Assembly (NCBI GenBank): GCA_022562795.1
Contig: JADFOP010000007.1
Coordinates: forward strand, 1-64,000
Direction of reading: 5' to 3'
DNA: 64,000 bases
Source of the DNA: Nitrospinota bacterium
GTDB taxonomy: Bacteria; JADFOP01
Under the pieces are notes generated by a model. That model did no database searches. It was not told where the DNA came from and worked only from the letters and a program-made list of their open reading frames with translations. Positions 2,945 through 51,788 of this stretch are shown in pieces (the stretch's first letter is position 1; every line of letters starts with the position of its first letter). The position numbers and the translations under genes were made by a program.

Positions 2945-3745
2945 CTATACCATGAGCTCGCGAATGTTCCGCACATCTTCCCTATCGATCCTTTCGCGTT
3001 TATTCCCGAATGCAATCAGCAAGCTCAGGTCGCAGACAGAATTGATGAGCCGGGGGACGCCGTTGCTTTGGCGATAGGCCTCCTCCATGCCCGAGGGGGA
3101 GAAGATCTCGCGCTCCCCGCCAGCGACTTTCATCCGGTGGAGGATGTAATTTTGCGTCTCGAGGAGGCTGAGCGGCTCGAGGTGAAACTTAATGGCGATA
3201 CGCTGGCGAAGCTGAGGAACTTTGGTGATGCTGCTCAGGAGCTCCGGCTGTCCTACGAGGATGAGGTTAAAGAGAAAGCGGTTCCGCTTCTGGTAGTTGA
3301 GGAGCATTCGAATCTCCTCATAGACGTCCGGGCGCTCCATGATGAGGTGGGCCTCATCGATGAGTATGACGATTTCCCGGCCTTCGCGAAGCTTGTTCTC
3401 GCTGCGCCTCGTCAAGGCTTGAAGCACCTCCCGCTTGCCCTGGGGGACCGGATCGCCACCAATGCCCTCGTAAATCTGTTTGAGGAAATCGAGCGCCGGA
3501 AGACAGGGGTTCGTGATGACGACCGAATCGTATTTCTCCTTCTTTAATTCTTCCAGGAGCATGAAGCACATGAGGGTCTTGCCGCAACCTACCTCTCCGG
3601 TGAGCATGGCCGATCCCTTGTTCCCCTTTACGACGTAGAGAAGCCGCATGAGAGCCTCCTGGTGTTTGGAGGTCTCCATAAAGTACTCGGTGTCGGGAAC
3701 ATTTTGAAATGGTTGGCGTTTCAGCCCCCAATACTTAAGGTACAA
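2945..3745 (-). CDS. ExeA/MshM-like AAA ATPase
   Basis: AAA+ ATPase of the ExeA/GspA/MshM type, which in known systems helps assemble secretion or pilus machines at the cell wall. The start is placed at a TTG (3743-3745) because GAGGGAGAGGG sits five bases before it and the family's opening motif (YLKYWGLKRQPF) follows directly; the longer ORF back to 3919 begins in unrelated sequence. Walker A is GEVGCGKT (residues 50-57), Walker B VILIDEAH near 125, and a sensor region GQPELL follows. At 266 residues it matches the ATPase core and lacks the peptidoglycan-binding tail of full ExeA. No secretion genes adjoin it; the downstream partner is the HD-GYP gene. Confidence 0.85.
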   Translation of the reverse strand: MYLKYWGLKRQPFQNVPDTEYFMETSKHQEALMRLLYVVKGNKGSAMLTGEVGCGKTLMCFMLLEELKKEKYDSVVITNPCLPALDFLKQIYEGIGGDPVPQGKREVLQALTRRSENKLREGREIVILIDEAHLIMERPDVYEEIRMLLNYQKRNRFLFNLILVGQPELLSSITKVPQLRQRIAIKFHLEPLSLLETQNYILHRMKVAGGEREIFSPSGMEEAYRQSNGVPRLINSVCDLSLLIAFGNKRERIDREDVRNIRELMV

Positions 3746-7309: not shown

Positions 7310-8134
7310 TCAGCGACGGTGCGTCCAGGCGGGGTCGGCGTACTTCTCTGCGGCCAGCGACTCGGCAAGGGCGCTCTCCTCCAGGCTGAGCTTCCCCTCC
7401 TTAAGAGTCACACCCAGATGGTCCTCAACGCCCTGGACGAGCGCTGAGGCCACCTTCTCCCAACCCAGCCTGCGCCCGGCCACCTCGCCGAGGCCCGCCA
7501 TCTCCCCGCGCCACCGGGCGATGAGGGCATCCTCGCGGCCTTCTTCCTTTTCCTCCGGATGCAGGCAGCGGTAGAGCAACGCGAGGTCGAGGGTCAACGG
7601 GAGGGAGCCGTGCTGGAGGAATGCGCGGCGGCTTCTGCGCTGAGCGCTGCCGAGGACCTTTCGGCCGTCCACCATCAGCTCATAGCTCGCCGGGACGGCG
7701 AAGCAGACAGGTGTCCTCGCCCGAAGGGAGCCTGGCTTCCGGGGAACGAGGGCCGCGGCGAGGCCGAGCTTCCCAAGCCCCACCGCGAACGCCTCGGTGA
7801 CGGTCCGATATACCTCCAGCAGGTCCTGCCAGCCGGGGAAGGCCCCATGGCGGGCCGCTAGGCTGTAGGTGACCTCGTCGTCGTGCAGGACCGCCTTTCC
7901 GGCCGTCGGCCTTCGGACGAGGTCGATCCCCTCCGCGGCCAGCAGATCGGGATTGACGCTCGACGCCGATGACTGACCGAAGCCCAAGGAGACGGCGGGG
8001 GGCGCCCACCTGTAGAGGCGCAAAGTCGGGGGGCCCGGGCTCGCCTCGACAGCCCGGAAGATGGCCTCATCGACGGCCATATTCCAGGCGCCCGGGGCGG
8101 GCCCGTCAATCAAAAGACGCCATTCTTCTGTCAT
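7310..8134 (-). CDS. lipoate-protein ligase A / octanoyltransferase (LipM-like)
   Basis: Member of the LplA/LipB/BirA fold that transfers lipoyl or octanoyl groups to lysines of carrier domains such as GcvH. Visible signatures are LRLYRWAPPAVSLGFGQ (residues ~38-54), RRPTAGKAVLHDDEVTYSL (~74-92, usually RRxTGGxxVxH) and the lysine-binding region VDGRKVLGSAQRRSRRAFLQHGS near 156-178. The Ala-Gly-Lys in the first motif replaces the common Gly-Gly-Arg/Gly, a conservative oddity. The length of 274 residues fits LipM/LplA without the accessory domain. It lies 100 bp downstream of grdD, in the same strand run as gcvH, so GcvH is the likely substrate (inference). Weak ribosome-binding site. Confidence 0.8.
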   Translation of the reverse strand: MTEEWRLLIDGPAPGAWNMAVDEAIFRAVEASPGPPTLRLYRWAPPAVSLGFGQSSASSVNPDLLAAEGIDLVRRPTAGKAVLHDDEVTYSLAARHGAFPGWQDLLEVYRTVTEAFAVGLGKLGLAAALVPRKPGSLRARTPVCFAVPASYELMVDGRKVLGSAQRRSRRAFLQHGSLPLTLDLALLYRCLHPEEKEEGREDALIARWRGEMAGLGEVAGRRLGWEKVASALVQGVEDHLGVTLKEGKLSLEESALAESLAAEKYADPAWTHRR

Positions 8135-8234: not shown

Positions 8235-9413
8235 TCAGATGACCGGCCCCTCATCGGGTAGGAGTCGCGCGCCGATAAGCTTCCCGACGGCAGCCGTCAC
8301 GTCCTCAGGGGCGACCATAATGACGGCGCCGGAGCAGCCCATGCCGCTTGTCGAGTAGATGCCGGCCTTCGATAGACAGCGGACGGCGTCTTCAATCTCT
8401 AGGACGTCCACCCCTCCAATCGACTCGGAGACGGCCTTAGGCTTAGGCTGAACTACGGGTTCGCCGGCTTCCTCCGTGGATGGTCTTACGAGCTCCTCAA
8501 GGATGGACTCCAGCCCTGCCGCCTTCGCCGCCTGGAACTCCTCCAATACCCGCTCCGGCAAGCGGGCCCGGACCATCTGGGCGATAAAGGCCACCGCCCC
8601 GGCAATTACCTCAGCACCGGAAGCCCTAGAGATAATACCGATAATCCGCTCAAACCCCTCTCCTACACCCGGGCCGTAGCCGAAACCGAAGGCCTCGTAA
8701 GAGCCGCCCGTGGTGAAGGCGCTGAAGAGCTTGACCAGCAGGTTCCCCGTAAGTGTGTCGCAGACGAGTACGTCGGCCGTCCCCCAGAGGCAATCGTTTC
8801 CCCTAAGAAGGGGCCCGCCGTCGGCCCGGATACTCTCAGCCAACCGGATTGGGTACCCACCGGCGGCCAGTGAACTCACGGCACGCTCGACCTGCCGGGC
8901 CCCGTCCACCGTGCAGAGCCCCACCGACGGGTCATCCCATCCAAGAGCCCGAGCCACAGCCCGGCCCAACAAGACGTTCTTGACCATGGCCCCCACGCGG
9001 TGGGAGTCGGCAGCCCCCGTGCACGAGGCGACGAGCATCTCCTTGCCGCGACCAGGCGTCACCACGCGGCCAACCGTAGCGACACCCATTGGAAAGGGGT
9101 AATGGAGGGTCACGGCGGCGTCTAGACGCCCATCCTCCAGGGCCTCTTCCAACGCTGCGTGGCCGGCCTCCTCGCTCTCGACGGCAATCGTGGGGAGGTC
9201 CGTGCCTCCCTCGGAACCTATGACTACCACCTCGAGGGCATCGTCCCGGCTGGCGGCGAGCTCCGCTCCGCGGATGGCCTCCTCAGGCCCAAGCTCGCTC
9301 CCAATAGCGGTCAGCCCTACCCTGACGAGCGGCGTTGTAGCCACCCCCTCTACCGCATCGGCGACCTCGGCCAAAACCTCGCCGACCATCCTTCTCAGGC
9401 CATCGGGACTCAT
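8235..9413 (-). CDS. grdD: glycine reductase complex protein C, GrdD-type subunit
   Basis: Subunit of component C, which receives the carboxymethyl/ketene group from selenoprotein A and releases acetyl phosphate. The fold is related to phosphate acetyl/butyryl transferases (MVKNVLLGRAVARALG, EGFERIIGIISRASGAEVI). The C-terminal STSGMGCSGAVIMV holds the conserved cysteine expected to carry the acetyl thioester. Length 392 matches the family. Its ATG overlaps the end of grdC by four bases (ATGA), so translation is probably coupled. Terminal gene of the grd cluster proper. Confidence 0.9.
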   Translation of the reverse strand: MSPDGLRRMVGEVLAEVADAVEGVATTPLVRVGLTAIGSELGPEEAIRGAELAASRDDALEVVVIGSEGGTDLPTIAVESEEAGHAALEEALEDGRLDAAVTLHYPFPMGVATVGRVVTPGRGKEMLVASCTGAADSHRVGAMVKNVLLGRAVARALGWDDPSVGLCTVDGARQVERAVSSLAAGGYPIRLAESIRADGGPLLRGNDCLWGTADVLVCDTLTGNLLVKLFSAFTTGGSYEAFGFGYGPGVGEGFERIIGIISRASGAEVIAGAVAFIAQMVRARLPERVLEEFQAAKAAGLESILEELVRPSTEEAGEPVVQPKPKAVSESIGGVDVLEIEDAVRCLSKAGIYSTSGMGCSGAVIMVAPEDVTAAVGKLIGARLLPDEGPVI

Positions 9414-10960
9414 AGAGCGCCCCCCTCGCCCAATCGTTCCGCCACCTCCCGGAGGGCCTCGGCCACCATTCGGCGGACCTCCTCTTTCGCAAGCCGGGGC
9501 TCTTCGGGCTCGGGGCGCCCGCCGTTCTCCTCCACGACGAACGAGAGCCCGTCGAAGAGGTTCGTCATCCGGCCGAGAAAGAGGCTCCCCTTACCGATCA
9601 CCATAACCCTTCGGAGGCGACCAGCCAGGATGTGGTCGCGGGCCGGCCCGAGATAGGGCACCCCCGAGGGGATATGGCCCTGCGTGGGGGCATAGCCGGG
9701 AAACCCATGGCGCGCGACGAAGGCGGGGAGGTCTTCCCGAGCAAGCTCGCCCCTCATGACGGCTAAGGCCCCGATTAGCCTTAGGTTGTTGTCGGTCACG
9801 TCCCCGGCCCCGGCCGGCACGGTGACCTCCGGGTTCTGGAGCTCCGGGGCGAACTTATCGACGTCGGCCACTTTAAGTCCGGCCCTACTCAGCGGCTCGG
9901 CGACAATCGCTTCGATGACCTTCTGGGGCGCGGCGGCAAGCCCGATTGTCTGGCGGCCCACCATATCGGTGCGGATCCACGGGCTCACTCCATCGTCGGC
10001 CGAAACCAGAACCGCGAAGGCGCCTAGCACATCTTCGAGCACGGGCAACCCCTTCTTGACGTGGTCCTTGCCGTTCATGCCCAGCTTGGCCACGCTCCCG
10101 CCGCCGACCACGGCCACCGAAGAGAAGACTCCGGCCTTGACGAGGCTCGCCGCCACCACAACCGAATGGACCGGGGCGGCGCAGAAATTGCGCAGGTCCG
10201 AGCCCGTGGCGTTAACGCATCCTGCGAACTCTCCTATTGCCTTGGCGAAGTTCCCCCCGCCTCGCTGGTTCATGTCGCCGCAGGCCTCCTCGGAGCACTC
10301 GATTAGGTATTCCACGCTGGCGGGCTCCACCCCGGCGTTCACAAAGAGTTGACGGAGCACCATGACCGCCGAGGCCTTCGCAACGAGGTTCTCCAAAATC
10401 ACGTGGGCGGTGAGGTTCGGGTCGAACTCGTGAGCCCTCTTGACGCAGCCCACGAGCTTTCCCCCCTGCCGGAGGGCCTCGGCCCTGCCCTCTTCCACCA
10501 GGGCGGCCACGGCCTCAGGCTCCTCACCCTCGCCGAGCCGCTCCAGATCCTCACTGCCAGCCATAGGATGGGACTTCAAAGCATCCCCGACATCGGCGGT
10601 GAAGGCCCGGGTGAGCAGAACGAGATCGAAGGTATCGACAATCTTCATCCAGGCCAAGAGCTTCGCCTCTGGCCAAATCTCCCCGTATTTGCCCGTCCGG
10701 GGGGCCTTGGAGATAGGGTTCTCAAGCCACGGCTTTTGCCCCTCGCCGAGCTCCTCTGGGGTGAGGTTCCCGATGTAGGTCTGGTTCGGCGGATAGGCGA
10801 GGACCTCTTCGTAGGTCCTAAGGGACTTTTCCAAATCCCGGAGGTAGGCGCTGTCCGGATCGAGGCGCCTCTCCACTGTCTGGGTCGATCCGTGGTCTCT
10901 GAGAACAGAGGGGGCGTGGATAAGGCTGTAAGCTGTTCCACGGAGAACGGGGAATGTCAT
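9410..10960 (-). CDS. grdC: glycine reductase complex protein C, GrdC-type subunit
   Basis: Large subunit of component C of glycine reductase, with a thiolase/FabH-like fold. Visible features: the N-terminal MTFPVLRGTAYSLIHAPS, the GSEDLERLGEGEEP region, and condensing-enzyme-like segments ECSEEACGDMNQRGGGNFAKAIGEFAG and LRNFCAAPVHSVVVAASLVKAG. Together with GrdD it converts the enzyme-bound C2 unit to acetyl phosphate, which acetate kinase can use to make ATP. 516 residues, typical length. GAGGAG precedes the ATG; grdB ends 44 bp upstream. Confidence 0.92.
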   Translation of the reverse strand: MTFPVLRGTAYSLIHAPSVLRDHGSTQTVERRLDPDSAYLRDLEKSLRTYEEVLAYPPNQTYIGNLTPEELGEGQKPWLENPISKAPRTGKYGEIWPEAKLLAWMKIVDTFDLVLLTRAFTADVGDALKSHPMAGSEDLERLGEGEEPEAVAALVEEGRAEALRQGGKLVGCVKRAHEFDPNLTAHVILENLVAKASAVMVLRQLFVNAGVEPASVEYLIECSEEACGDMNQRGGGNFAKAIGEFAGCVNATGSDLRNFCAAPVHSVVVAASLVKAGVFSSVAVVGGGSVAKLGMNGKDHVKKGLPVLEDVLGAFAVLVSADDGVSPWIRTDMVGRQTIGLAAAPQKVIEAIVAEPLSRAGLKVADVDKFAPELQNPEVTVPAGAGDVTDNNLRLIGALAVMRGELAREDLPAFVARHGFPGYAPTQGHIPSGVPYLGPARDHILAGRLRRVMVIGKGSLFLGRMTNLFDGLSFVVEENGGRPEPEEPRLAKEEVRRMVAEALREVAERLGEGGAL

Positions 10961-11004: not shown

Positions 11005-12351
11005 TCAGGCTGTCTGGCTCACCAATTCACCACCCATCTCGAAGACCGTTTGGACCTCGATGGGCGTCTCGAGCGCCCTTAGGGCCGTCTCCACGAGGCG
11101 GCGACGGAGGGCCCGCTCATCCTCCAGTGACAAGGTAGGGTCGCCCAAGGGGTGAGGGATCGCGATGGCCGGGATGATTCGGTTGGCCCCCACAGTCTTG
11201 GATATGGGAACAATGGAGACGATGTGAGCTACTGGAATCCCAATCCTTTCAATCTCTTTGACTATCGTTGCCCCGCAACGAGCGCAGGTTCCTCACGTGG
11301 AGACGAGGAGGACTGCGTCGACTTCGCCCTCCTCTAGCTCCTTGGCGATTTCCTCGCCGAAACCTTTGGCATTTTTGACCGCCGTGCCGTTGCCCACAGT
11401 GGAGTAGTAGAAAGGATGGATATCCCCGATGATGCCCTCATCCTGGAGCTGACGAATGGTATCTATCGGAAGGACTCGGTCCGGGTCTTCGTTGGCGTAC
11501 CGGTTATCGTACCCCCCGTGCACCGTCTGGTGGCTCTCGCCCGTTAGGTCGTTCACCCCATCTAGGCTGTATCGACCGAACTTCGTGGCGTTGGAAGCCT
11601 CAATACGGTCGGGGTTGCCATGAGGGACGATGCCTCCGGATGTGACCAGCGCCAGCTTGATTGTTGAAAGATCGGTGATGGCCGGTGGAGGATCAATTCG
11701 ATCGAACACAGGCATCGGGTACTCGGTGACGAACGGTTCTCCCCGCATCTTCGCCAGCAGCATATCGACCGCACGCCTCGCCCCCCGCTCGCTTCGCTGG
11801 ATGTTGACTCTCAATCCACGGGGCAGATAACCCTCTTCTTCGGGGCTTCCGAGCGACTCCCCACGGGCGAGCTTGAGCCCCAGGCGCGTCATCGTCGCCA
11901 CCGCCTCGCGCATGCCGGCGGCGGAGTCCTCCGTCGGAACGATATAAGCGCTCTTGCGGTAGAGCTCCTCCCCGGGGTTCTCCTCGTACATCCCCGTCAC
12001 CGCCGGCAGGCCCAACGATTCCACAGCCAGCTCGCAGACGGCCCCGCAGGCCACCCCATATCGGCCCGCGTTGAAGGCGGGCCCGGCGATGAGGAGGTCG
12101 GGGCGAAAGGCCTCAATCAACCCCCTCGCCTCTTCCTGGGCGGCGCAGGCATTGGCCGCAAAGTAGTCGTCGCCGCAGATAACGGTCCCGACGATCTCGG
12201 CGGCCTCTCCGAAGGCCTCCTGGAAGGCGAGGCCGGGGCCTACAAAACCATCCCTGGTAGTGAAACCGACCCCCGCCTGCTCCTCGCCGCCCAGTTGTCC
12301 GAAGAACTGATTGAGGTAGTGCACGACCCGTATTTTCGTGCTCCCGCTCAT
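11005..12351 (-). CDS. grdB: glycine reductase component B selenoprotein subunit (contains Sec)
   Basis: Substrate-activating component B, gamma subunit. The frame is open from ATG 12351, preceded by GAGGGGAGG, through a TGA at 11293-11295, and continues in the same frame to the stop at 11005. The sequence around the TGA reads LLVST-U-GTCARCGATIV, the UxxCxxC active-site motif of GrdB, so the TGA is selenocysteine at codon 353 and not a stop. Including Sec the protein is 448 residues, the family length. With GrdE it binds glycine as a Schiff base and passes the C2 unit to GrdA. The sarcosine (GrdF) and betaine (GrdH) paralogues look similar; the single full set of genes favours glycine. Ordinary callers will split it into two ORFs. 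Confidence 0.93.
11272..11288 (-). promoter_or_regulatory. possible bacterial SECIS hairpin of grdB
   Basis: Four bases after the UGA the mRNA can form CCUGC-GCUCGUU-GCGGG, a 5-bp stem with a 7-nt loop containing GU. Bacterial SECIS elements lie just after the Sec codon, but this stem is short and closer to the UGA than in E. coli, so the call is tentative. Confidence 0.3.
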
Positions 12352-12372
12352 TCTACATCCTCCCCTCTGTTC

Positions 12373-12837
12373 TCAGTGCTTGGTTAAATCTCCCCGGATT
12401 CGGCTCACCGTCTCTCCGATCTCCTCTACGGGGAGCACCATCTCCATCATGGCGATCTGCTCCTCGTAGATGGAAGAATCCACGGCAGCCTTAAACTCAG
12501 GCTCCAGGACGTGATAGACGCGGAGCCCCAACTGAGCTCCAGCCAATGGACCCACATAGGTAGGGTCGCCCGCCGTCACCGTCTCGGCGTTGACGGCCAC
12601 GGCCCCACCATCCGCCCCGCCAAGGATGACGACCAGCTTGTCAGCTCCATGCTGCTCAGCGATCTCCTTGATCCGGGCCTGGTTCTCTAGGTCCATCGTC
12701 CCAGCAGCCGTTCAGACGAAACACTCGGTGGCTGAGAAAACCACCTCGGCGCCGGCGCCTTTAACACACGCCTCGATGGCGGGCGCCGGTATGCCATCTC
12801 GATCACCGATGACGATGACCTTTCTCTCGTTGAACAT
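12373..12837 (-). CDS. grdA: glycine reductase selenoprotein A (contains Sec)
   Basis: Small selenoprotein A, the carrier that takes the C2 unit as a Se-carboxymethyl group and is recycled by thioredoxin. The frame runs from ATG 12837 (GGAGG upstream; [17 protein letters not shown]) through an in-frame TGA at 12712-12714, then continues to 12373. The junction reads [16 protein letters not shown], the invariant GrdA signature, placing Sec at residue 42. Total 154 residues, close to the family's ~157. The stretch after the UGA could pair as CTGG/CCAG but I see no convincing SECIS. Without Sec readthrough the two halves look like unrelated short ORFs. Confidence 0.95.
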
Positions 12838-12868: not shown

Positions 12869-14158
12869 TCACATGCCGATCGCCGAGAGCCGTTCGTATC
12901 CCAAGATGTTTGTAGCCCCCACGATGGCCTGCAGCTCCACCGTGATTGAGCCGTCATCCGCCAAGCAACCTGCATATCCGCCAGCCAAAACGTCTGCGCT
13001 CTCTATATGCCCGATTATCCGCTTCATGGGAGGCAGGGTGATCGTCGCATTTGCGTTTCCGGACGAGACCACCGCATCGGCCAGTTTGCTGGCATCGACA
13101 AGGCTCTGAGAGGCGCCGTCGCGGCCAGCGAACTCATCGGTCATCAAGACCGTCCTGATGCCCCGCTGCTCAACCTTATTGCAAATCATAATGAGGTCGG
13201 TGTCGGGGTTGCCAAAGCCCTCTTCAGAGATGATGGCGCCGTCGACGCCGAGCATCCCAACGAGCTTGGCCGCATAGTCGCTGGAGCGCTCCTTATCGGC
13301 GAGGGTGACGTTCTCGTTGGTTATGATCACGCCCACAAAGTTGAGCTCCTCGCCATGGCGCTCGTAGAGCTCCTCGATGACCGGGTTGTTCAGGTGGTGA
13401 TAGGTCGTATTCTTGTCACAGGCCGACACGCAGTTGCCGCTGACTATGGCTCCGTCCATGGCCTCCGTCGGGCTTATTATGCTCGGCAAAATGGTCTTCG
13501 CATCGACGCCGTATACGTAGGTATCGTGAAGGAGCCCCTGGCTCTGGAGCATGTAGACGAAGGCGACCTTTGGGAGCCCAGGAAAAGCCGTCAGGGCCTC
13601 AGACAAAGCAGGCGCTTCGTAGCCGGCCACCTCGTCTGGAGAAACTTCGCGCGCGGCCTCGCCCAGGTAAGCCGCCGCCCTGAGGCCCGCCAGCCGAACG
13701 GCCGTCTCTTTTTCGCTGGGCGCGATATCGTCCTTGAAATCGAACAGCAGGACGATGTTGTGGAGTTTCGAGAAAGAGGAGAGTTCCGCCCCAGGGCCCT
13801 CCATGTCGATGATGCCTTCCTGGAAGGCGATGATTTGACTTACAGTGACAACAGCGCAACCCTTTAGGGCCAGGGTCCTGCCGCTTCCTACGGTCTGAAC
13901 CCCCGAGACGAAGCCCGGGAAGACCCCTCCGGGTCCGTCCACCTTCACCCTGGGTTCGATTACATCTTTAACCGGCATGATGCGGGTGGACTCCCCCGGG
14001 TGGGCGAGCTCGACTCCGACGCCGAGGATGCGGTTGTCGTCCCCTTGAGCCTGGCGGCAGAGCTCTTCCCGGTCGATGATGAGCGTCCCGCCGATCACCT
14101 GAGTGTTGTCACCAAACTGGACATCTCGGATGTAAACCTTTCCTACCTCTAAGCGCAT
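12869..14158 (-). CDS. grdE: glycine reductase component B proprotein GrdE (pyruvoyl-type)
   Basis: Precursor of the alpha and beta subunits of component B. In studied GrdE proteins self-cleavage between Asn and Cys in the SGNC motif leaves a carbonyl group at the new N terminus that binds the amino group of glycine. Here the motif is at residues 240-243 ([17 protein letters not shown]), almost the same position as in characterised GrdE. Downstream features [20 protein letters not shown] and [18 protein letters not shown] complete the match. 429 residues. ATG preceded by GGGAGAGA; it overlaps the upstream grdX gene by ten bases and ends 31 bp before grdA. Confidence 0.93.
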
Positions 14159-14547
14159 GGATTGTCTCTCCCATTTGAAGTGGAATGAGAAGGGTGGAGG
14201 CGTCGAATGCCTGTTGAAAGGAGCTCGAAATCTATTGCCTGAAGGCCTGCCGTCACCCGCTCAGGCGGGGACGGCGGGGGTCCGAAACCCCGGAGCGCCT
14301 CCAGAGCGTTCTCGAGCATCGTAATGGAGGTGGGTTCTCCGTCGCCACCAGGGCGAGCGCTGAGGACGAAGGAGCGGAAAAAGGCCTGACTCGGCCTAAG
14401 GTTTCCGAGCTTTGGGTGGAGAAGAAAGCGGTGCCCCTTATGGACGGCGTCCCTGACGACCTCCAAGACGTTCATGGGCGGTCCCTCGAGCAGGCGGGCC
14501 TCGGGGTAGTGTTGGAGGACAAGAGGGTTGTTAGTGAAGATCCGCAC
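14149..14547 (-). CDS. grdX: GrdX family protein
   Basis: Small protein that accompanies glycine/sarcosine/betaine reductase genes; its molecular role is unknown. The N terminus RIFTNNPLVLQHYPEARLLEG has the TNNPLV signature of the family. At 132 residues it is family-sized. It starts with GTG at 14547 (GGCGGT upstream) and overlaps grdE by ten bases, which implies cotranscription. The C-terminal third is less conserved in appearance. Confidence 0.8.
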   Translation of the reverse strand: MRIFTNNPLVLQHYPEARLLEGPPMNVLEVVRDAVHKGHRFLLHPKLGNLRPSQAFFRSFVLSARPGGDGEPTSITMLENALEALRGFGPPPSPPERVTAGLQAIDFELLSTGIRRLHPSHSTSNGRDNPCA

Positions 14548-14600: not shown

Positions 14601-14984
14601 TTACTCCTCTTCGATAAGGCTCTTGTACTGCTCAGCCGTCATCAGGTTTTTCAATTCGGCGTCATCGGCGATAGCAACCGCTATCATCCAGCCCCCGCCG
14701 TAGGGGTCGCTGTTAACGAGCTCCGGCCCATCCTCCAGAGCCCCATTGACTTCCAGAACCTCGCCCGAGATTGGCGCGTGTAGGTCGTTGACCGCCTTGA
14801 GCGATTCAACCACCCCAAACGAATTCCCTTCCTCGACATTATCGCCGAGCGCGGGAAGCTCAACATAGATAATCTCTCCGAGCTGGTCTTGAGCGTAGGC
14901 TGTAATCCCAACGAAACACTTTCCATTTCGATCCCGTGCCCATGTGTGTTCCTGGCTATAGAGCAGTTTTCCGGGAATTTCCAC
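14601..14984 (-). CDS. gcvH: glycine cleavage system H protein
   Basis: Lipoyl carrier protein, normally shuttling the aminomethyl group in the glycine cleavage system. The lipoyl hairpin GVVESLKAVNDLHAPISGEV places the modified lysine at residue 63; the C-terminal GGGWMIAVAI is also typical. 127 residues, standard length. Translation begins at GTG 14984, two codons before IPGKLLYS, with AGGTG overlapping the stop of the upstream isochorismatase gene. No gcvT or gcvP is in the window. Its place at the head of the grd cluster, with a lipoate-ligase gene at the other end, suggests a local glycine-related function, whether in cleavage or as a lipoyl relay (inference). Confidence 0.93.
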   Translation of the reverse strand: MEIPGKLLYSQEHTWARDRNGKCFVGITAYAQDQLGEIIYVELPALGDNVEEGNSFGVVESLKAVNDLHAPISGEVLEVNGALEDGPELVNSDPYGGGWMIAVAIADDAELKNLMTAEQYKSLIEEE

Positions 14985-26817: not shown

Positions 26818-27738
26818 ATGAGCAAAGAGGCCAAATTCAAAAAGCCCGAAATAAACCTCGTTGAACTCATCGAGCAATACCAGGATGAGGATAAGTGTCG
26901 TGCCGCCCTTGAAAGTCTACGCTGGCCCGACGGTGTTGAGTGTCCACGGTGTCACCACAAGGGAATCTCAAAAGTAAAGAAGCGCGGACAGTTCGATTGT
27001 AACTCATGCCGCTACCAATTCTCTGTAACGGCAGGCACCATCTTTCACGATAGTCACCTGCCCCTGTGGAAGTGGTTTCTCACGATCTACATGATGATTG
27101 AGTCCAAAAAGGGTGTCTCTGCCAATCAAGTCAAGCGAACCATCGGAGTCTCGTACAAGACCGCGTGGTATCTCTGCCAACGAATCCGCAATGCCATGAC
27201 TGAACCCGACCCCCCGAAGCTGAGGGGCATCGTTGAGGTAGATGAAACGTGGGTAGGCGGCAAGAGAAAGGGCGTCGGGCATGGGTATAAGGGGAACAAG
27301 ACCGTCGTTGTCGGGGTAGCTCAACGTGGCGGCAAGGTGAGGCTCCAGGTCGTCCATGCAAGGGACAGAAAGACCCTTCACAAGTTCATTAAAGAGCATA
27401 CCGCGCCCGATACCGAAGCCATCTACACCGACGACTGGCCACCCTACAGGGGAATAGCAGACCATGACACAAGGCATGAGACCGTCACTCACCGGAAAGA
27501 GGAATGGGTTAGAGATGATGTCCATACTAACTCCATCGAAAACGTTTGGAGCCTCTTGAAGCGTTCCATTATGGGTACTTACCACAAAATCAGCGCAAAA
27601 CATCTTGACGCTTACCTCGACGAGCTTGAGTGGCGGTTCAATAACCGAGACAATCCATACCTTTTCCGGGATACGCTGCGTAAACTCATTGGAGCCAACA
27701 ACCTCACCTACAAGAAATTGGTGGAACAACAAAACTAA
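26818..27738 (+). mobile_element. IS1595-family (ISXO2-like) transposase gene
   Basis: 306-residue DDE transposase. An N-terminal zinc ribbon is shown by CPRCHHKGISKVKKRGQFDCNSC written across residues ~40-65 (four cysteines in two CxxC pairs). The catalytic core has VEVDETWVGGKRKG (first Asp), YTDDWPPYRGI (second Asp) and HTNSIENVWSLLKRSI, where an N-x-x-E segment replaces the third acidic residue as usual for IS1595/ISXO2. GGAAAGGAG precedes the ATG. The frame is intact, so it may be active. I could not define terminal inverted repeats or a target duplication, so only the gene is delimited. Confidence 0.9.
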
Positions 27739-27983
27739 TCTTCTAGCTCAATTTCAAACTCAGTTATCATTTTCTTATCTTGATGAAGATGTCCAAAGGC
27801 GTCTCCCAGGAGAGATAATCCCTCATAAACATAATCCGGATATTCTTTCTTACAAGCAGGACATTCAACTATTTTTACATATTTGTCTAGGTCATATTGT
27901 ATCCGTGTCTTACAGTACGGACAGGAAATATCTACGGTTTTAATTTCATAAAGTCCTATGCGGATTGTCTTTCTAACCATCAT
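27735..27983 (-). CDS. zinc-ribbon hypothetical protein
   Basis: 82-residue protein with CPYC and CPAC pairs (DISCPYCKTRIQYD, IVECPACKKEYPD) that would bind one zinc. A polar C terminus follows. GGAGGAAG lies before the ATG pair at 27983. Its stop overlaps the transposase stop, convergent. Function unknown; the AT-rich composition matches the island and not the surrounding chromosome. Confidence 0.65.
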   Translation of the reverse strand: MMVRKTIRIGLYEIKTVDISCPYCKTRIQYDLDKYVKIVECPACKKEYPDYVYEGLSLLGDAFGHLHQDKKMITEFEIELED

Positions 27984-28002
27984 AAATCTTCCTCCCCCAA
28001 GC

Positions 28003-28830
28003 TCATTGGCTCTGAGAACCCTCCATATCAGGAGGCAACGGATAAATAGGAATATCTTGGTCTATTCCTATATGCTCAACACGAAAACGGAGTCTATACA
28101 AATCCGAATATTGAACAATTTTATTGAGTTGGTATCTAAGCCTATAATCCTTCCTTCCCCATTCTTTAAATTGTTCTCCATCAGCAAATGGTTGGCCTGT
28201 AATCTCTACTCCCCTTCCTAACCATTGTACCATTTGTCTATAATTATCAAACAAATCTCCGAATAGGTTTTGTAATTGCTCTGAATCAAGCTTTAGCTTG
28301 CTATCTGGCCTTAAGGCACGAACCAAATTGTTGTGAGCTTTCCTAGCCTGTGGAATAAGATTCTCTTTAAGAAATACTCCAATATTGTGTTTAGCAATGT
28401 CATTATCACTATGGAGCACCATTGCGGTTTTTTCCAGATATTTATCTGTTTGCGTAAATGCTGGCCTGGCAAAATCTTTGTATATATTCCACAGTTTATC
28501 CTTGGCTGGTCTAACAAGCTCTTCTGCAATTTTTTCCCTCACGGGTTCTTCTGCCTTTTCAGCTTCTCCTAATTCTAAAAATACCTCTCCCTGTCGAATT
28601 AGCTCAGGCTTCTCAGTTTTTAAGGCCTGGAGTTCCCTTTGTTGTCCTAATACAAGTCCGATAACCGAAGCAAAAAATATTCCCAGACCAATAGCGACTT
28701 GAATCTTTAAGGGGAGACCAAGAGAGAAAACACCCCAAGCGTCCATGACTATTGACCCAACCGTCCAGATTGGGCCAATGACCAGGCCCGCCTGCAAAAG
28801 CAGTCTACGGATTGTTCTAAGCTTTCCCAC
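28003..28830 (-). CDS. membrane-anchored hypothetical protein
   Basis: 275 residues with two N-terminal hydrophobic segments (AGLVIGPIWTVGSIVMDAW and IQVAIGLGIFFASVIGLVLG) and a long soluble, mainly helical region rich in charged residues. No family recognised. It begins with GTG 28830; the spacing to the nearest purine-rich sequence is poor, so the start is uncertain. Lies 19 bp upstream of the zinc-ribbon gene, probably one unit. AT-rich like the rest of the island. Confidence 0.6.
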   Translation of the reverse strand: MGKLRTIRRLLLQAGLVIGPIWTVGSIVMDAWGVFSLGLPLKIQVAIGLGIFFASVIGLVLGQQRELQALKTEKPELIRQGEVFLELGEAEKAEEPVREKIAEELVRPAKDKLWNIYKDFARPAFTQTDKYLEKTAMVLHSDNDIAKHNIGVFLKENLIPQARKAHNNLVRALRPDSKLKLDSEQLQNLFGDLFDNYRQMVQWLGRGVEITGQPFADGEQFKEWGRKDYRLRYQLNKIVQYSDLYRLRFRVEHIGIDQDIPIYPLPPDMEGSQSQ

Positions 28831-28992
28831 CCCTTAATTCTAGCATGGCTCTTACCTTGTAGCAAGGTGATAAGCGCGTATTAATTATAGAATGTATGCC
28901 TCCCAACGCCTACGTTTATATTATATGTGGGCTTTAGGGTGTTCAATCGGAAGGTCATCAATTCTGATGTTTCATGCATAGAAGGACGTGAT

Positions 28993-29265
28993 ATGCCTGC
29001 GAGACCTACAATTCCGAGGGAGAACACAAAGATAAACCTTCAGGTGCCAAAAGACCTTTTAAGGGAAATTGATGAATATGCTGCCGAGGCATCAAAAAGC
29101 CGTAGTAGCGTCATTCGAGAGGCCATGGCTAAGCTTTTGGAATTCAAAAAGCAAAGAGAGCTTGAAGAACTATTGCACGAAGGTTATGAGGCCACAGCAG
29201 AGTTGACCCTTAAAATACACAGGGAATTTAAACCCACAGAACACGAGCTTGATTGGGAATATTAA
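28993..29265 (+). CDS. ribbon-helix-helix antitoxin (MazE-like role)
   Basis: 90-residue protein with a CopG-type RHH domain: KINLQVPKDLLREIDEYAAE followed by SRSSVIREAMAKLLEF. The acidic C terminus (HREFKPTEHELDWEY) is of the kind that wraps a toxin. The ATG at 28993 has AAGGA upstream; an earlier in-frame start at 28927 is unlikely. It precedes the MazF gene by 21 bp. Expected to neutralise the toxin and repress its own promoter. Confidence 0.8.
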   Translation: MPARPTIPRENTKINLQVPKDLLREIDEYAAEASKSRSSVIREAMAKLLEFKKQRELEELLHEGYEATAELTLKIHREFKPTEHELDWEY

Positions 29266-29286
29266 ATTTAGGTTAAAATTATCAAA

Positions 29287-29643
29287 ATGGCCGGACATGA
29301 AATAAGACGTGGAGAAGTATGGTTAGTTAACCTAGAACCTGTTGTTGGCAAGGAAATCGGGAAAGTTAGGCCCTGTCTAATTATTCAGAATGATATTGGA
29401 AATGAAAGGTCTCCATTAACGATTTTTGCCCCAATCACTGGAGTCAAGCATTTAGAGAGACATTATCCCTTTCAGGTTTTTGTACCATCTGGCGAAGGTG
29501 GATTAACAAAAGACTGCATAATATTGTTAGATCAAATACGAACAAGAGATAAACCAAGGATTATCGAATATGTGGGTAAACTCTCTTCCTCTACAATGGC
29601 TCAAGTTGACCAAGCCATAAAAATTAGCCTGCAACTACAATAG
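29287..29643 (+). CDS. MazF/PemK-family endoribonuclease toxin
   Basis: 118-residue toxin that cuts mRNA. Family features: IRRGEVWLVNLEPVVGKEIGK near the N terminus (substrate loop), RPCLIIQND, SPLTIFAPITG and KDCIILLDQIRTRDK, which contains the conserved D-Q-x-R set. Intact, so probably functional. With the RHH gene it forms a type II toxin-antitoxin pair in the AT-rich island, likely stabilising it. Confidence 0.9.
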   Translation: MAGHEIRRGEVWLVNLEPVVGKEIGKVRPCLIIQNDIGNERSPLTIFAPITGVKHLERHYPFQVFVPSGEGGLTKDCIILLDQIRTRDKPRIIEYVGKLSSSTMAQVDQAIKISLQLQ

Positions 29644-35906: not shown

Positions 35907-35998
35907 TGGCGGAGAGAGTGGGATTCGAACCCACGAGGGGGTTTGACCCCCCTACACGCTTTCCAGGCGTGCCCCTTCAGCCTCTCGGGCATCTCTCC
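35907..35998 (-). tRNA. tRNA-Ser (anticodon GGA)
   Basis: Type II cloverleaf with long variable arm, acceptor GGAGAGA/TCTCTCC, anticodon loop CTGGAAA (GGA) and encoded CCA. Last of the five-tRNA cluster before dnaX. Confidence 0.95.
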
Positions 35999-36037
35999 AT
36001 GCGATCGCCATCGGCCCACCAGCGACCTAATTTCTGC

Positions 36038-36131
36038 TGGCGGAGAGTGAGGGATTCGAACCCCCGGTACCGGTCGCCCGGTACACCAGATTTCGAATCT
36101 GGCGCCTTCAACCTGACTCGGCCAACTCTCC
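36038..36131 (-). tRNA. tRNA-Ser (anticodon CGA)
   Basis: Acceptor GGAGAGT/ACTCTCC, anticodon loop TTCGAAA (CGA), long variable arm with GTACCGG/CCGGTAC pairing, and encoded CCA. Confidence 0.95.
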
Positions 36132-36144
36132 GCGGGTAATTCAA

Positions 36145-36221
36145 TGGCGCGCCCAGTAGGACTCGAACCTACGGCCTCCGGATCCGCAATCCGACGCTCT
36201 ATCCTCCTGAGCTATGGGCGC
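36145..36221 (-). tRNA. tRNA-Arg (anticodon GCG)
   Basis: Acceptor GCGCCCA/TGGGCGC, D arm GCTC/GAGC, anticodon stem TCGGA/TCCGG with loop TTGCGGA, so the anticodon reads GCG. T arm TAGGTTCGAGTCCTA and encoded CCA. Most bacteria read CGN with an ACG (inosine) tRNA, so the GCG anticodon is unusual. Confidence 0.93.
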
Positions 36222-36271
36222 ACCAAATGTTAAATCATTGAGCCTATCAGGAGCCGTTCTCGAATTAAGTT

Positions 36272-36362
<91 letters not shown>

Positions 36363-36385
36363 CAAACACTTTGGCGAATAGAGGG

Positions 36386-36477
36386 TGGCGGAGGGAGTAG
36401 GATTCGAACCTACGGTCCCAGTTCCCCGGGACAGCGGTTTTCAAGACCGCCGCCTTAAGCCACTCGGCCATCCCTCC
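36386..36477 (-). tRNA. tRNA-Ser (anticodon TGA)
   Basis: Acceptor GGAGGGA/TCCCTCC, anticodon stem GCGGT/ACCGC with loop CTTGAAA (TGA), long variable arm, encoded CCA. First of the cluster in the direction of transcription. Confidence 0.95.
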
Positions 36478-50345: not shown

Positions 50346-51788
50346 TTGAAGCTACCCAATCATAAAACAAAGATCGTGTGCACGATCGGGCCGGCTTCCC
50401 GCTCAGAGTCTGTCCTGAAGAAACTGGTCAAGAGTGGCATGAGTGTGGCCCGGCTCAATTTTTCTCACGGCACCCTTGAGGGTCACAGGGAAAATATCCG
50501 GCGCATACGCTCTGTAGCGGCCCAGTTAGATCGAGTAGTTACGACTCTTATTGATCTCCCCGGTCCCAAAATCCGCGTTGGCAAACTGCAGAACGAACCG
50601 CTTGTGCTTAAGAGAGGTGACAACGTGACCCTCACCACTAAGGATGTTCTTGGTACGACCTCCCTTATATCTGTCAATTACGACAGGTTACCAGAGAGCG
50701 TGTCTAAGGGTAGCCTCATCTTTCTCAACGATGGTTTTGTGGAATTGAAAGTACAGGAGGTATTAAGCAATGAGGTGAGGTGTAAGGTTACGATTGGTGG
50801 GCAATTACTATCCTACAAAGGCCTGAACCTTCCGAATGTAAAATTATTGATAGATGTAGTAACAGACAAAGATCTCGATTTTGTTGATTTTGGATTGAAG
50901 GAGGGGGTGGATGCCTTTAGCGTTTCGTTTGTAGAAAAGGCAGAGGATATCGTCAAGGTCAAGGAATTTGCAAGAAAAAAGGGCAAACCTATTTACGTGG
51001 TGGCAAAGATTGAGCGGGAAGAGGCAGTCAATAACTTCGATGAAATACTGAATGTGGCGGATGCGATTATGATCGCTCGTGGAGACCTTGGGGTGCAGAT
51101 ACCTCTAGAAGAGGTGCCTGCGGTCCAGAAAAAGCTCATCCACAAGTCAAATCTCTTGGGGCGTCCGGTCATCACCGCTACGCAAATGTTGGAATCCATG
51201 ACAGAGAACGTACGCCCAACTCGGGCTGAAGTAACAGATGTGGCAAACGCAATTTTGGATGGGACCGATGCCGTGATGCTGTCTGGAGAAACTGCGATTG
51301 GCCGATATCCTGTGGAGACGGTAAGAATGATGGCCAGAATCGCGGTGTCTATTGAACGTCAGCGGCTAAGCATAAGTCCATCATCGAACGTCGAAGAGTC
51401 CTTTCTGAGTGGTGTGGGTCAGAAGACCGTGTCGATTGAGGATGTTGTATCCCTGAATGTGATCGAAGCCATGCGCGCATTAAATGCACGCTTTATTTTG
51501 ACACCTACCGATACGGGCAATACACCTCGTCGTATCTCCAGATTTAAGCCCGATTGTTGGATTCTAGCTTTTAGTAAATGTGAGAGAACACACAGATTTT
51601 TATCATTGTCTTATGGAGTTTACCCATTTTTGATAGAGAACAAGGCTGATAGTTGGCATGATCTGGTAATGAAATTAATGAAAGATGCCAGATTAGGAAA
51701 AAGAGGTGACAAGGTGATATTAACTGAGGGCTTATCTTCTGGACAGGCTGGTGGTACCGATTCGCTTAGAATAATTACGTTGGTATGA
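50346..51788 (+). CDS. pyk: pyruvate kinase
   Basis: Makes ATP and pyruvate from phosphoenolpyruvate in glycolysis. Signatures: KIVCTIGPASRS, ARLNFSHGTLEGH, IDLPGPKIRVG, KIEREEAVNNFDEIL, IMIARGDLGVQIPLEEVP and TATQMLESM. 480 residues with the C-terminal domain. Starts at TTG 50346, with only a weak GAGAA before it. Noticeably AT-richer and differently coded than neighbours, which suggests acquisition. The stretch up to the terminator would control its expression. Confidence 0.95.
   Translation: MKLPNHKTKIVCTIGPASRSESVLKKLVKSGMSVARLNFSHGTLEGHRENIRRIRSVAAQLDRVVTTLIDLPGPKIRVGKLQNEPLVLKRGDNVTLTTKDVLGTTSLISVNYDRLPESVSKGSLIFLNDGFVELKVQEVLSNEVRCKVTIGGQLLSYKGLNLPNVKLLIDVVTDKDLDFVDFGLKEGVDAFSVSFVEKAEDIVKVKEFARKKGKPIYVVAKIEREEAVNNFDEILNVADAIMIARGDLGVQIPLEEVPAVQKKLIHKSNLLGRPVITATQMLESMTENVRPTRAEVTDVANAILDGTDAVMLSGETAIGRYPVETVRMMARIAVSIERQRLSISPSSNVEESFLSGVGQKTVSIEDVVSLNVIEAMRALNARFILTPTDTGNTPRRISRFKPDCWILAFSKCERTHRFLSLSYGVYPFLIENKADSWHDLVMKLMKDARLGKRGDKVILTEGLSSGQAGGTDSLRIITLV

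Follow-up and report, generated by a model that had tools for sequence, protein, structure and literature searches.

A glycine reductase cluster with two in-frame UGA codons

The 64,000-nucleotide stretch of DNA analysed here (hereafter the window) represents contig C7 (JADFOP010000007.1, positions 1 to 64,000) of a draft genome of a Nitrospinota bacterium, which comprises 2.15 Mb in 84 contigs and is 97.1% complete. On its minus strand lies a complete glycine reductase gene set in the order grdX-E-A-B-C-D, with gcvH directly upstream of grdX and an lplA-like gene directly after grdD. Within this set, grdA (12373..12837) and grdB (11005..12351) are each interrupted by an in-frame TGA. The sequence-only reading of this DNA had placed these codons at 12712-12714 in grdA and 11293-11295 in grdB, with the frame and the active-site patterns CFV-U-TAAG and ST-U-GTCARCG continuing beyond them, and both the codons and the patterns are indeed found there on the minus strand; its expectation that standard tools would call the two genes as broken holds for a simple ORF caller. 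When TGA is translated as selenocysteine (Sec, U), grdA, whose start at 12837 reads AAAGGAGGGTCC-ATG, encodes glycine reductase selenoprotein A of 154 residues with Sec at residue 42, in the context ECFV-U-TAAG. The grdB gene, which also has a TGA as its terminal stop, likewise encodes a selenoprotein B subunit of 448 residues with Sec at residue 353, in the context LVST-U-GTCARCG (read through from 12351 to 11005 as ...VLLVST-U-GTCARCGATIVKE...).

Both read-through products score above the cut-offs of their NCBIfam models, GrdA with NF040748 (239.2 bits, cut-off 130) and an exact CFV-U-TAAG motif, and GrdB with TIGR01917 (619 bits, cut-off 602.2); at the level of sequence, these matches are well beyond chance. 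The remaining genes on the same strand complete the system. The grdE-type subunit of protein B (12869..14158) is a pyruvoyl-type proprotein with its best NCBIfam matches in the GrdG/FarE/PrdA family and a Cys cleavage-site motif that is identical in 70 of the 73 homologues compared. It is accompanied by grdX (14149..14547; NF038093, 78.7 bits, cut-off 40) and by both protein C subunits, namely the beta subunit GrdC (9410..10960; NF040746, 733 bits, cut-off 450) and the alpha subunit GrdD (8235..9413; NF040747, 494 bits, cut-off 350). Of the flanking genes, gcvH (14601..14984) codes for the lipoyl carrier protein of glycine cleavage (TIGR00527, 152.6 bits, cut-off 115.85), and the lplA-like gene (7310..8134) for a lipoate-protein ligase recognised by NCBIfam lipoate-ligase matches below cut-off. 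In G001, a genome from the same genus, the copy of grdD is 83.7% identical to that of the window, and the gene neighbouring it is 70% identical to the lplA-like gene.

Conservation and RNA context of the UGA codons

Across the genome collection, all 80 of the closest GrdB homologues have a TGA at the Sec site, 77 of them in the motif T-U-GTC.RCG and 3 in T-U-GSC.RCG, and CFV-UGA-TAAG is present in every GrdA motif found (about 60) in the loci of those homologues; the two UGAs of the window thus stand where the homologues have theirs. Identity to homologues does not collapse past the UGA in either gene, amounting to 67.0% before and 57.1% after it in grdA, and to 58.9% before and 68.4% after it in grdB. 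In grdB, the codon is followed from the very next base by a SECIS element (11255..11292, minus strand): the match to SECIS_4 (Rfam RF01990; 46.9 bits, gathering threshold 38, E 8.4e-8 for the whole window) spans exactly the 38 bases 3' of the UGA and folds into a CGUUGC-GGG-GCAACG hairpin common to 79 distinct homologous sequences. For grdA, no SECIS was detected and the homologues yielded no consensus RNA hairpin, so that such an element can there only be inferred. A scan by codon usage that covered all TGAs of the window ranked that of grdB fifth, behind those at 12375, 18983, 33712 and 7445, of which 12375 and 18983 are gene ends with the next gene in frame behind them; the grdA codon was absent among the top candidates listed.

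Selenocysteine machinery in the draft genome

The sequence-only reading had further held that the genome must carry SelA, SelB, SelC and SelD. This proved right for selC and for a Sec-type selD, but neither selA nor selB is in the assembly. The tRNA-Sec gene (selC) lies on contig C37 (77.6 bits) and differs from the copy in G001 at a single acceptor-stem position, which is still paired as G-U. Most of selD is present, split over two contigs: the piece on C27 (307 bits) is interrupted by the contig end and reads UGA at the active site (SHGGG-U-ACK), with a stable hairpin (z -3.2) after it, and C45 holds the C-terminal part. At 3926-5041 of C45, this C-terminal part is fused in frame to a PAS/histidine-kinase sequence at the contig end; the joining is most likely a misjoin, given that this selD end recurs in G001, where the sequence downstream of it is similar. 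Searches of the draft for selA and selB, using family models and G001 proteins as queries, found neither gene, and the matches to the SelB query were EF-Tu and other translation GTPases.

The same-genus genome itself contains selA-selB, a near-identical tRNA-Sec, a part of selD and the end of the cluster, the latter as CCA-transferase-lplA-grdD on a contig of 3.5 kb that breaks off within grdD. Hence, the genus has selA, selB and selC together with parts of selD and of the grd cluster. Both in this genome and in one of the same class (G002), selA-selB is divergent and lies beside scpA-scpB. In our draft, scpA-scpB and the following genes on C34 align collinearly with G001 (DNA identity 80%) as far as C34:1805, just short of the expected selA start; the sequence beyond is unrelated, and no selA remnant was found upstream of scpA/scpB on this contig. 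The usual scpA/scpB neighbourhood is therefore rejected as the site of selAB, as is the vicinity of the dehydrogenase gene that lies close to selB in G001, which is intact on C78 with other neighbours. With selAB missing from the ancestral position, either the genes have moved to a stretch that falls into a gap, or they have been lost, or else C34 is misjoined there.

The conservation described above bears directly on the possibility that the TGAs are sequencing errors or real nonsense mutations in ordinary Cys-type genes. The draft does have visible misjoins, but each of the two stops coincides exactly with a Sec site that is universally conserved, in one case accompanied by a SECIS_4 element, and in a published survey Cys homologues were not found for GrdA and were few or absent for GrdB (PMC1794560). 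We consider this explanation vanishingly improbable and reject it on the strength of the conserved sites, the SECIS and the lack of decay. A true loss of selA and selB, which would leave grdA, grdB, selD and selC as recent relics of a reductase that is no longer made, is a more substantial contender in view of the 97.1% completeness of an assembly that misses both genes and of the unrelated sequence found in the ancestral position of selAB, the remaining locus being collinear with the same-genus genome. However, grdA, grdB, selC and the available pieces of selD contain no other lesion, the parts of the genes beyond the UGAs are conserved, the one-base difference in selC keeps its pairing, and the assembly is fragmented, with gaps exactly at selD and at the end of a second grdB. 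Thus, loss is highly improbable; absence from the draft does not prove absence from the organism, and with no damage seen in the grd genes, selC or selD, an assembly gap is far likelier, though proof is lacking. Taken with the family models, the grdB SECIS_4, the conservation of the UGAs and the conserved flanks on both sides of them, this upholds the earlier proposal that grdA and grdB encode Sec: they are very probably the two selenoproteins of glycine reductase, with UGA decoded as Sec and selAB residing in the unassembled part of the genome. Judged by sequence, the in-frame UGAs are confirmed as an ordinary case of UGA used for selenocysteine in a known enzyme.

Several further observations concern the same contigs and the search for other selenoproteins. 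A second 'tRNA-SeC' prediction at C37:15724-15811 was rejected as a gene, as it corresponds to the selC 3' part inside a 239-bp direct repeat. The two copies of this repeat (C37 1727-1965 and 15741-15979; 97% identical), which contain the selC 3' part, flank some 14 kb of sequence that carries urease genes and apparent urea-transport genes; the stretch resembles a genomic island inserted at the tRNA-Sec gene, and no integrase was recognised in it. Contig C4 opens (1-120) within the 3' end of another grdB-like gene, the remainder of which is not in the assembly, and the same stretch repeats on C4 at about 2188-2331, roughly 2.2 kb further on. Molybdopterin oxidoreductases were rejected as further selenoproteins: no TGA falls inside any matched domain, and the frames inspected held no selenoprotein candidate.

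Predicted function and substrate

Glycine reductase converts glycine to acetyl phosphate and ammonia. In the organism studied here, the tRNA-Sec from C37 would carry selenocysteine, which the ribosome would insert at each internal UGA of grdA and grdB, directed by a SECIS hairpin just 3' of the codon; the required Sec synthase (SelA) and elongation factor (SelB) would most likely be encoded in the genome part missing from the draft. If the enzyme follows the established family mechanism, protein B (GrdE/GrdB) would bind glycine, the selenol of GrdA would accept the carboxymethyl group, and protein C (GrdC/GrdD) would release acetyl phosphate, possibly yielding ATP through acetate kinase.

Whether the substrate is glycine can be approached through the family models and the published motifs, which for GrdB are AHGGxD[QTAP] and TxGNxTxV in glycine-type proteins and TTGTGT in sarcosine-type ones (PMC9751293). 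A sarcosine or betaine reductase, or one acting on some other small molecule, might be suspected because the sarcosine GrdF model NF040794 gives the top raw score for GrdB and NF040793 that for the GrdE-type subunit, both below cut-off, and because VHGGYDN stands in place of AHGGxD[QTAP], so that the exact pattern is not matched. Against this, GrdB exceeds the cut-off of the glycine equivalog TIGR01917 but not those of the sarcosine and betaine models; the other parts of the glycine motif fit by eye, TxGNxTxV being retained and the sarcosine TTGTGT missing. Moreover, 13 of the 80 homologues likewise depart from the strict pattern, which is consequently not a firm boundary. A different substrate therefore appears unlikely, and glycine is the likely, if not certain, one.

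Organisation of the gcv and grd genes

The surroundings of the cluster invite comparison with the glycine-cleavage operon of the same-class genome. The order in the window is sbcD, sbcC-like, isochorismatase-like, gcvH, grdX, E, A, B, C, D and lplA, and that on contig C120 of G002 is sbcD, sbcC-like, gcvT, gcvH, gcvPA, gcvPB and lplA. Accordingly, sbcD, the sbcC-like gene, gcvH and lplA occur in the same order in both, whereas G002 has gcvT, gcvPA and gcvPB where the window has the isochorismatase-like gene and grdXEABCD. The shared genes are 53.5% (gcvH), 36.5% (lplA) and 24.7% (SbcD) identical, and the sbcC-like proteins have family-level similarity only. On its face, the arrangement looks as if reductase genes had replaced cleavage genes, with gcvH and lplA being kept. 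Two loci from Firmicutes MAGs (L083 and L084) also have gcvH near grd genes and establish the grd-gcv association in outline; unlike the window, where gcvH is the only gcv gene at the locus, they are combined grdE-grdB-gcvT-H-PA-PB clusters with all four gcv genes. A locus keeping gcvH alone of the gcv genes was not seen among the 80 examined.

It is conceivable that a glycine-cleavage operon was remodelled in place, with gcvT, gcvPA and gcvPB giving way to grd genes and gcvH and lplA staying, and that lipoylated GcvH came to serve glycine reduction directly, for example as a dithiol re-reducing GrdA in place of thioredoxin. The flanks and order shared with the same-class genome and the lack of visible thioredoxin genes in the cluster are consistent with such an exchange, which, if confirmed, would mean that the fate of glycine was changed by a gene swap inside one operon. 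However, gcvP and gcvT may lie elsewhere in the genome, in which case gcvH would serve them (as in a reductive glycine pathway), and the order may stem from loss of gcv genes from a combined cluster like those of the Firmicutes. We regard the combination of in-place remodelling with a direct role of GcvH in glycine reduction as very unlikely.

Relationship to known glycine reductases

The selenoprotein glycine reductase predicted here shares with that of Clostridia (for example Peptoclostridium acidaminophilum and Clostridium sticklandii) its subunits, the X-E-A-B-C-D order, the Sec sites and the grdB SECIS_4 hairpin, with GrdB being at most 65% identical. It differs from the clostridial system in that no thioredoxin or thioredoxin-reductase gene is visible in the cluster, which is flanked instead by gcvH and lplA. 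That GrdA and GrdB contain Sec, and that a Sec UGA is misread as a stop, is already known, and glycine reductase has already been reported from uncultured lineages; those of serpentinite sites are, like the present one, instances of the selenoprotein enzyme outside cultured Firmicutes (PMC9751293, PMC9469722). In most Lost City MAGs with grd, these genes are clustered with selA, selB and trxA (PMC9469722), whereas none of the three stands beside grd in the window. A tree built from 81 GrdB proteins joins the window protein to Thermodesulfobacteriota/Myxococcota-type sequences (97/92), on a long branch (0.7) that makes its placement unsure. Of the 40 relatives listed, only one belongs to the same genus and only one other to the same class. 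These findings add glycine reductase and the use of selenocysteine to a sparsely sampled bacterial lineage, turn two seemingly broken genes into members of an intact energy-yielding pathway and, through the missing selA and selB, urge caution when the Sec trait is called from draft genomes. As a separate observation, contig C73 of G002 (3033-3689, minus strand) encodes a distant GrdB relative with one in-frame TGA, perhaps the D-proline reductase subunit PrdB.

Other features of the window

Elsewhere in the window, the stretch 26818-29643 is of low GC content (0.44-0.47 versus about 0.60), with an IS-type transposase-like gene at 26818-27738 and a ribbon-helix-helix/MazF-like toxin-antitoxin pair at 28927-29643, both judged by eye from their translations. 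A pyruvate kinase-like gene (50346-51788) also lies in a low-GC stretch (0.49) and was possibly acquired. Finally, a tight tRNA cluster at 35907-36477 comprises four tRNA-Ser genes (gga, cga, gct and tga) and one tRNA-Arg gene.
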